Of a stretch of DNA of 64,000 nt, positions 46,565-48,433 are shown one piece after another (position 1 is the stretch's first letter; each line of letters opens with the position of its first letter). The position numbers and the translations under genes were made by a program. Source of the DNA: an uncultured Ardenticatenia bacterium (GTDB lineage: Bacteria; Chloroflexota; Anaerolineae; 4572-78; NAK82); the NCBI GenBank assembly GCA_937127125.1, contig CAKZLO010000035.1, positions 124,001 through 188,000 of the forward strand. The letters are read 5' to 3'. The notes under the pieces were generated by a model, which saw nothing but the letters and a program-made list of their open reading frames with translations, ran no database searches and was not told the origin of the DNA.

Positions 46565-48433
46565 TCACCGGCTGGGGAATAACGTCGACTTTGCTGTGAC
46601 CTCAACGATGACCCCTCCAACTGGCGACCCCGATTCTGCAACTGGAAGGGTTTGGAACCATATATCATCTATGTACAGATTGCTGATGCCTGACGAATCG
46701 GTCTCGACACGCAATTGGAGCTCAGCCGTTCTTCCACGGTAAGCACTGAGATCGACTATGCGTTGAACCCATCCGCCTGTGTTGCGTGTGGCGCACAGGT
46801 AGTATGATTCGATTACTCTCCCATCCACAATGAGGCTGCTCCGATCAGCGCCACACGTATCAGCGGAATTGATCCAGTACCAGTACGTCAGCTGCGGACG
46901 GTCTACGGGCACCGTAACCTCTTGCTGAATGTAGGACACCTCGTCATTATCACCGCCCAGCCATACTGCCCAGCTGCCATTGTGTGGCGCCACGGTGAGG
47001 TGTGATCGATCCAGTACTATCCGCCATCCTTGCTGGGAGAACTCGGACCAAGCCGTTGGACCATCCTCAAACCCTCCGTTAGCTGGAACGGTGAGGGCAG
47101 GCGGCTGAGGCTGTGGTTCTGGCTGAGGCGGCTGGGCACCACCATAACGTGCTACAAATGGTAGGAAGATCTTCTTTGAATCATCAGCCTGGGAACTATC
47201 CGTCGTACCCTGCCCATACTCAATATAGCTGGCATCTTCACCTACCAGTGAGACACCATACTTGATGCGCATCATGCCATTTTCGCCCCAACGCATCCCC
47301 CAGGAATTGCGCAAATACCAGACGCCTTGACTGTCGTCCCAGCCGACCAGCACAACGGCATGGTTGGTACCATAGGGACATTGGTTCCTTTCATCCGTCT
47401 GGAAGATGCCACCTGTGTAGTTGGCGAATGCATTGCCCACGCACACTCCCGCCGTCACTGGTCCGTGATTGTAAATAGCCTGTTTGAGCGCCAATACGGA
47501 CGGCATGCCGTACCCCGCCACTAACCCCCATGAGAAGATCCTCTCATGGTGCGGATGCGGGGCACCACAAGCTATCTTCTGCGCACGATAGGGAAAATCT
47601 TGCTCATAAACAGCACCAGCTTCCGTCTCACCTGGTGGTATTTCGTTGTAATGATAGTCGTGCGCCCAGAAACCGCCGGTACATCCCCAACCTCGAGTGT
47701 TACAGGATAGTAAATATTGCTCCGAAAGATCACGTTCAACACCATCGTGGATCTTGATGGCTGCCTCAAGCACTCCTGTGGTGGCAAAAGCCCAACAACT
47801 CCCACATGGGCCTTGGTCCTTGATAGGTGTACATTTACCTTGCTCGCACCAATTGAAGTGGGTCGGGAGGCCCAACGCTGTTACGTCGGCAACTGCTATT
47901 TCAACCGTTGGTGTTGGAGAGGGTTGAGGGGGAGGGGTAGGAAAGTTTGCACCTGTAAAGGGACCAACCGTCCGGACAACAACTGAGAAGGTACTCAACG
48001 GTGATGCTGTACTCTCCCACGGACGACGCAAGGCCAGCGCCAGCTCTGTCTCGCCCTCAGCTATGGCAGCAAAGCGCAATACTTGCCGAGCGGAGCTGCC
48101 CGGCACTTCTGAGAATACCTCGAACTCTGGCATGCCATCTTGTTTTTGTACAATGAGCGAGAGATCAGCACGCACCACCTCCCACAAATAGCCGGTTGAC
48201 GGGTTGGCTGGCAGCCGAACCACCAACAGTGTATCCTCATCGAGGATTACCTCACTACCATTGTCAGTGATGGTCAGAACGATTTCATTGCTTGGCGCGC
48301 TTCGTGCCGGGGAAACAGTTACGACACTATACACTGCCAGAGGCACAGCTAATAGGACAAACACCAGCCACAGAGAAGCCCAGCTATGCCTCTGATACCA
48401 TTCCCACCTTGCCACTTTCCAGGCCCCCTCCAT
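46565..48433 (-). CDS. Papain-family protease with a chagasin-type inhibitor domain
   Basis: About 622 residues from ATG 48433 (GAGGGG site just upstream; a longer start up to 48610 is possible). One N-terminal membrane segment or signal (SLWLVFVLLAVPLAVYS, about 20-36) is followed by an I42 chagasin-like domain: NPSTGYLW (77-84) and RRPW (136-139), the two inhibitor loops that normally plug papain active sites. A Pro/Thr linker leads to the C1A protease: Gln207, Cys213 in CGSCWAF, His358 in TNHAVVLVGW, Asn376 in RNSWG, with SCNTRGWGCTGG. No I29 propeptide is present. A C-terminal beta-sandwich (NGGFEDGP to YIDDIWFQT) could bind carbohydrate or protein. It is exported and possibly self-inhibited. 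Confidence 0.9.
   Translation of the reverse strand: MEGAWKVARWEWYQRHSWASLWLVFVLLAVPLAVYSVVTVSPARSAPSNEIVLTITDNGSEVILDEDTLLVVRLPANPSTGYLWEVVRADLSLIVQKQDGMPEFEVFSEVPGSSARQVLRFAAIAEGETELALALRRPWESTASPLSTFSVVVRTVGPFTGANFPTPPPQPSPTPTVEIAVADVTALGLPTHFNWCEQGKCTPIKDQGPCGSCWAFATTGVLEAAIKIHDGVERDLSEQYLLSCNTRGWGCTGGFWAHDYHYNEIPPGETEAGAVYEQDFPYRAQKIACGAPHPHHERIFSWGLVAGYGMPSVLALKQAIYNHGPVTAGVCVGNAFANYTGGIFQTDERNQCPYGTNHAVVLVGWDDSQGVWYLRNSWGMRWGENGMMRIKYGVSLVGEDASYIEYGQGTTDSSQADDSKKIFLPFVARYGGAQPPQPEPQPQPPALTVPANGGFEDGPTAWSEFSQQGWRIVLDRSHLTVAPHNGSWAVWLGGDNDEVSYIQQEVTVPVDRPQLTYWYWINSADTCGADRSSLIVDGRVIESYYLCATRNTGGWVQRIVDLSAYRGRTAELQLRVETDSSGISNLYIDDIWFQTLPVAESGSPVGGVIVEVTAKSTLFPSR

Follow-up and report, generated by a model that had tools for sequence, protein, structure and literature searches.

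Our analysis suggests that the chagasin-type I42 domain encoded at the start of a gene in the window (the whole stretch of 64,000 nucleotides analysed here) is quite probably a cis-acting inhibitory prodomain, and that the secreted papain-type protease joined to it would be made as a self-inhibited precursor. The gene occupies positions 46565..48433 of the minus strand and encodes a 622-aa secreted protein with the order I42, C1A protease and beta-rich domain. Many other bacteria share this fusion arrangement, which is probably a little-noticed kind of self-inhibited precursor.

The 622-aa open reading frame begins with an ATG at 48433; its longest form, of 681 aa, begins at a TTG farther upstream. 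In two same-genus orthologues a stop codon lies right before the aligned methionine, which supports the ATG as the start. Residues 1-45 (48299..48433; this and all following features of the gene are on the minus strand) form an N-terminal signal or anchor segment, visible as a hydrophobic stretch in the translation, and a Pfam scan of residues 1-83 gave no match. The chagasin-type I42 domain spans residues ~46-158 (47960..48298), with the core of the MEROPS/Pfam chagasin family Inhibitor_I42, PF09394, at residues 69-153 (E 2e-14, 54.1 bits against a curated cut-off of 27.2). Alignment places the BC loop, NPSTGYLW, at residues 77-84 (48182..48205) and the FG loop, RRPW, at residues 136-139 (48017..48028), with the DE loop region, EVPGSSARQ, between them at residues 109-117 (48083..48109). 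A Pro/Thr-rich linker of ~30 residues, read from the translation (residues 159-188, 47870..47959), leads to the C1A papain-type protease domain (residues 189-405, 47219..47869), which Pfam recognizes as Peptidase_C1, PF00112, at residues 189-395 (E 2.5e-45, 155.7 bits against a cut-off of 20.7). This domain carries CGSCWAF at residue 210 and the whole set of Gln207, Cys213, His358 and Asn376, the codons of the last three being located by translation and alignment at 47795..47797, 47360..47362 and 47306..47308. Cathepsin H is its top match among solved sequences, and its model superposes on ervatamin C (Z 30.0, rmsd 1.4 over 201 residues), giving a predicted papain fold.

No I29, Propeptide_C1 or other propeptide was detected by Pfam in the window protein up to E 1, and NCBIfam returned no match to it. 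The layout proposed by a first-pass annotation made from the letters alone, with a signal segment, the I42 loops, a C1A protease retaining Gln/Cys/His/Asn and no I29, was thus borne out by translation, Pfam and alignment. That annotation described neither a second, paralogous fusion gene in the same genome nor the beta-rich C-terminal domain of the window protein. The latter (residues ~451-598, 46640..47083) is MAM-like, matching the Pfam family InhA-like_MAM with 21 bits, under the cut-off of 26.9. In a tblastn search, residues ~451-602 matched five plasmid records, in two of which the matched genes carry M4 and M1 peptidase annotations; the domain may thus be an accessory module common to secreted peptidases.

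In 31 unfused loci, the region ahead of the protease is mostly a different, conserved short pro-segment. The unfused prokaryotic C1A proteins (e.g. L156, L165 and L177) are the closest protease relatives outside the fusions and share their catalytic domain and secreted layout, but have a short conserved pro-segment ending in ...LCGL... where the fusions have I42. A profile built from 30 of the 31 unfused loci matched 30 of the 31 unfused ORFs at E <0.01 and, of the 79 fusion ORFs (a number that includes repeat gene copies), none. The two elements therefore appear mutually exclusive, which upholds the initial claim that I42 stands in the place of a propeptide. Moreover, neither I29 nor any other propeptide was matched at E up to 0.1 in 51 fusion regions, 50 of which had been trimmed to start ~15 residues ahead of I42. 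Neither Pfam nor the pro-segment profile brought to light a concealed I29 or other propeptide in the fusions, and this reading was rejected. As for the unfused pro-segments themselves, no Pfam family matched more than one member and a PDB profile search gave nothing meaningful; they are reminiscent of the cathepsin B propeptide, a likeness that neither search recovered. Five of the unfused loci (L156, L164, L165, L167 and L170) have archaeal titles.

In a tree of 102 of the 123 C1 domains (21 distant ones were dropped), the fusion label can be explained with 7 changes, where 33 would be expected from shuffled labels; at least 3 changes are forced by well-supported branches. The fusions are thus clustered, yet a single gain alone is insufficient to explain them. 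One C1 domain, that of a Caldithrix locus (L162), falls among the fusions, where it is weakly placed; its protein has the pro-segment, and the same strand carries a separate I42 gene immediately upstream. The chances seem evenly balanced that I42 prodomains are a distinct, widely used class of bacterial papain prodomain, replacing the short pro-segment within the same protease lineage and sometimes split off as a neighbouring gene, as in this locus. If so, I42 would pass back and forth between free inhibitor and prodomain, and the genome would reveal which own enzyme at least some of the bacterial chagasins target.

The fused domains retain both the inhibitory loops and the catalytic residues. 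We aligned the window protein with 50 of the 51 fusion regions passing the length filter; a fusion with a linker of 245 residues (L127) was left out, and another (L131) had failed the filter. Gln, Cys, His and Asn are invariant in all 51 aligned sequences. Arg is found at the RPW position in 47 of them, and the second position after it is Trp or Phe in 48 (39 Trp, 9 Phe), while Thr-Gly is kept in the BC loop in 43/51; the exact motifs are rarer (NPxTG 21/51, RPW 34/51), and RPW has been lost in some fusions, e.g. L118 and L134. The NPSTG and RPW of the window protein correspond to the chagasin L2 and L6 motifs, given as NPTTG and RPW/F in the literature (PMC2607524). Its DE loop, with VPGSSA, departs from the GXGG of chagasin L4, which the family profile does not require, and many fused relatives have GAP or GSP at this loop instead. 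Conservation is similar in free-standing I42 domains: a loose BC-loop pattern occurs in 58/59 fused and 42/43 free-standing domains, and a loose R.W/F pattern in 55/59 and 36/43, respectively, the 59 fusions being unique by identical C1 sequence, so that the same gene with slightly differing ends could count twice.

A profile of 17 fused I42 domains found its closest solved relatives in the Pseudomonas aeruginosa inhibitor ICP (2wgn, E 3.8e-23) and in chagasin (~4e-19). ICP and the Trypanosoma cruzi chagasin structures (2nnr, 2oul, 3e1z and 2nqd) have the same BC and FG loop motifs as the fused domains; these two proteins are free trans inhibitors, whereas the window I42 is joined to its presumed target. 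In solved complexes, chagasin loops occupy the active-site groove of papain-type enzymes (PMC3317066, PMC7863939), and the Ki of chagasin is picomolar (PMC2607524).

The linker between I42 and C1 is 22-61 residues long in 50 of 51 fusions (a set that includes L127 and excludes the window protein) and 245 in the remaining one, with a median of 34. AlphaFold2, supplied with 51 aligned sequences, gave a pLDDT of mostly 95-98 for I42 and C1; for the I42-linker-C1 piece, the pTM was 0.90 and the mean pLDDT 92. The C1 domain accounts for ~60% of this piece. We roughly estimate that the pTM would be ~0.64 if I42 were unplaced, and that values of 0.90-0.91 require the expected error to be ~2 A. A fixed intramolecular packing of I42 against C1 is thus predicted by AlphaFold2's own confidence. 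From the conserved loops and the known chagasin complexes, we infer that the docked face would be the active site. When the model was used in fold searches, the alignments covered the protease only.

Covariation did not support a contact between loops and cleft. An unbiased search showed no excess of loop-cleft pairs, with 3 in the top 100 against 6.2 expected from shuffling; 46 effective sequences make this a weak test. A single pair, Arg137 of RPW and residue 206 (papain 18), corresponds to the known contact of chagasin R91 with cathepsin L N18 (PMC2607524). Asp or Asn is absent from residue 206 in 2 of the 4 rows without Arg and in 1 of the 47 others (Fisher p 0.014); the pair was tested after one row had been noticed and the 51 rows are related, and this linkage is only a hint of contact. 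Distances between I42 domains correlate with those between C1 domains (r 0.68 over 59 fusions; the maximum of 2000 shuffles was 0.23), which speaks for shared inheritance and not for contact.

The mechanism that we favour would proceed as follows. The N-terminal I42 would substitute for the classical pro-segment, folding back across the ~30-residue linker onto its own C1A domain, where its BC, DE and FG loops would plug the active-site cleft. Activity would appear only once I42 had been removed or destroyed after secretion, whether by another protease, by another, already active copy or by unfolding. The full-length protein would be inactive before processing, and this may be its route of activation. 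The first-pass annotation had proposed an unusual zymogen released by cutting the Pro/Thr linker, or else protection of the cell from its own enzyme. The zymogen part gains from the position of I42 in the slot of the pro-segment, from the loops and catalytic residues being kept together, from the side-by-side genes described below and from the pTM of 0.90; these observations go part of the way towards it. The linker-cut part fared less well: although a cis inhibitory prodomain is the best-supported account, an inhibitor as tight as chagasin may stay bound after the cut, in which case severing the linker would not be enough to release the enzyme. Some release step would be needed for a tight inhibitor held on a tether, and the switch is more likely to lie in I42 being removed, digested or unfolded than in a linker cut. 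Protection of the cell from its own enzyme is not a separate mechanism from self-inhibition.

In its own genome, the protease is always accompanied by the inhibitor. The assembly (3.7 Mb in 85 contigs, 95% complete) contains two C1 and two I42 matches in total, all within two fusion genes, so that protease and inhibitor are always joined in it. The second gene (L002/L004; contig 60, 580-2457) has the same I42-C1-beta-domain order and is 47% identical to the first over 590 aligned positions. Across 41 genomes (this one and 40 relatives), there are 14 I42 and 26 C1 matches, of which 10 each lie in the same fused genes. Both same-genus genomes carry fusions, one of them two. Chance or mis-assembly of a single gene was ruled out by the orthologues in both same-genus genomes and in other phyla.

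The larger phylum was covered by a sample of 400 genomes, drawn evenly from it. The sample holds 12 strong C1 matches, scoring at least 100 bits: 9 in I42 fusions, one at 851 bp from an I42 gene and two without I42, of which one (L071) is cut on its N-terminal side by a contig end. Of the 73 weaker C1 matches, mostly from other subfamilies, one is a fusion, 9 lie within 1 kb of an I42 gene and 63 are without one. A separate I42 gene beside a C1 gene was found in 10 cases in this sample, and also at L162 and at L008/L034. From the side of the inhibitor, 51 of the 75 I42-bearing genomes of the sample lack any C1 match, which means that free I42 domains must also serve other purposes or act on other targets.

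A species-level scan, with one genome per species and the fusion alignment as query, extended this distribution. The best 80 of 551 confirmed stretches gave 78 loci, of which 47 are fusions from 7 named phyla; since loci were ranked against a fusion query, 47/78 is an overestimate of how often C1A proteins in general are fusions. The 47 fusions belong to Chloroflexota (28), Myxococcota (7), Bacteroidota (6), Pseudomonadota (2), Thermodesulfobacteriota (2), Acidobacteriota (1) and Cyanobacteriota (1), phylum names being taken from record titles, nearly all of them of metagenome bins. One record (L141) is named as a strain, Levilinea saccharolytica KIBI-1. I42 always comes first, none of the 47 fusions having it C-terminal of C1. 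Other beta-rich domains are frequent in fusion proteins. Two bins, titled Thermodesulfobacteriota and Deltaproteobacteria (L105 and L109), have two I42-C1 fusion genes in same-strand tandem. In a Chloroflexaceae locus (L131:3961-5599), two successive I42 domains precede a protease whose frame looks broken, and the C1 domain of L127 (971-3587), separated from its I42 by 245 residues, branches beside the unfused proteins with a pro-segment in the C1 tree. Spread by viruses or plasmids was considered and set aside: no viral contig matched, and the 8 plasmid records that did match, none over more than 80% of the query, cover only the protease or only the C-terminal domain.

The same data allow other readings of the I42 domain. 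It could be cleaved off after secretion and act mainly in trans, guarding the cell surface or blocking the papain-type proteases of other organisms, the fusion then providing equal amounts and co-export. Such a role would suit the many free-standing I42 domains of the phylum, where only 20 of the 102 I42 matches in the 400-genome sample are the fused partner or, within 5 kb, the nearest neighbour of a C1 match. It would also suit three Anaerolineaceae-type loci (L136, L138 and L139) with a separate I42 gene after the fusion gene, just after it in the first two and ~1.1 kb off in L139; these separate genes have what we take to be a lipoprotein-like start (lipobox). P. aeruginosa chagasin, furthermore, inhibits a eukaryotic enzyme, cathepsin L (PMC2784779). 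We nevertheless consider a mainly trans role unlikely, as the fusion occupies the exact slot of the pro-segment, the pro-segment of unfused relatives is absent from the fusions and the predicted packing is intramolecular. Cis and trans roles of I42 can coexist.

More improbable is a role in which I42, instead of being a switch, chiefly helps the protease to fold, as an intramolecular chaperone, or clamps it for stability in hot habitats. Some relatives are named Roseiflexus and Roseilinea and a same-genus isolate Nak82, names that we take to mean hot springs, and classical propeptides often assist folding too. However, fusions are found as well in Bacteroidota, Myxococcota, Pseudomonadota and other groups not known to us as thermophilic, and a clamp bound on another face would not need conserved cleft-binding loops. 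Slightly less probable again is a degenerate Ig-like spacer or binding module devoid of inhibitory function, with which the departure of the DE loop from GXGG, the loss of RPW in fusions such as L118 and L134 and the frequency of other beta-rich domains would agree. Against it, the loop residues are kept equally in fused and free-standing I42 domains, as judged by the loose patterns, and I42 is always ahead of C1.

A comparable case is human cathepsin F, a C1A zymogen with a cystatin-homologous propeptide domain, described as unique among cathepsin zymogens (PMC10650516). Both cathepsin F and the window protein have an inhibitor-homologous domain N-terminal to C1A, a cystatin in the former and an I42 domain of different fold in the latter. 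Cathepsin F also retains an I29-type pro-region, unlike the window protein, in which no I29 was found and whose fusion arrangement is present in at least 7 named bacterial phyla. An inhibitor-type prodomain in a papain zymogen is therefore already known, and the I42 version without I29 would be a variant of it. We found no description of an I42-C1 fusion among the open-access papers that our search covered; the architecture may already figure in domain databases. In 2009, inhibition by a bacterial chagasin had been verified only for that of P. aeruginosa and only against a eukaryotic protease, according to a study of that year (PMC2784779), which left the targets of bacterial chagasins open. 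A 2023 survey of the papain family put prokaryotic multidomain C1A proteins aside without detailed analysis (PMC10380794), which may explain why the fusion is not discussed there. The dozens of I42-C1A proteins and side-by-side gene pairs make the question of the bacterial chagasin target directly testable, and would yield self-inhibited papain-type enzymes that can be produced without an I29 propeptide.

Staphopains show a protease-inhibitor gene-pair layout. Each has its dedicated inhibitor, a staphostatin, encoded next door, like the separate C1 and I42 neighbours found here; protease and inhibitor belong to other families and are encoded by two genes, whereas the window protein is one chain. 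At L008:489-1773 (reverse-complement coordinates) and L034, C1 and I42 genes adjoin on the same strand, apparently without a signal peptide, an arrangement that resembles an intracellular pair of protease and inhibitor. Four genomes of the phylum (G200:C139, G245:C89, G155:C19 and G230:C58) have short C1-like and I42 genes that converge on opposite strands, with 77-178 bp between the matched domains.
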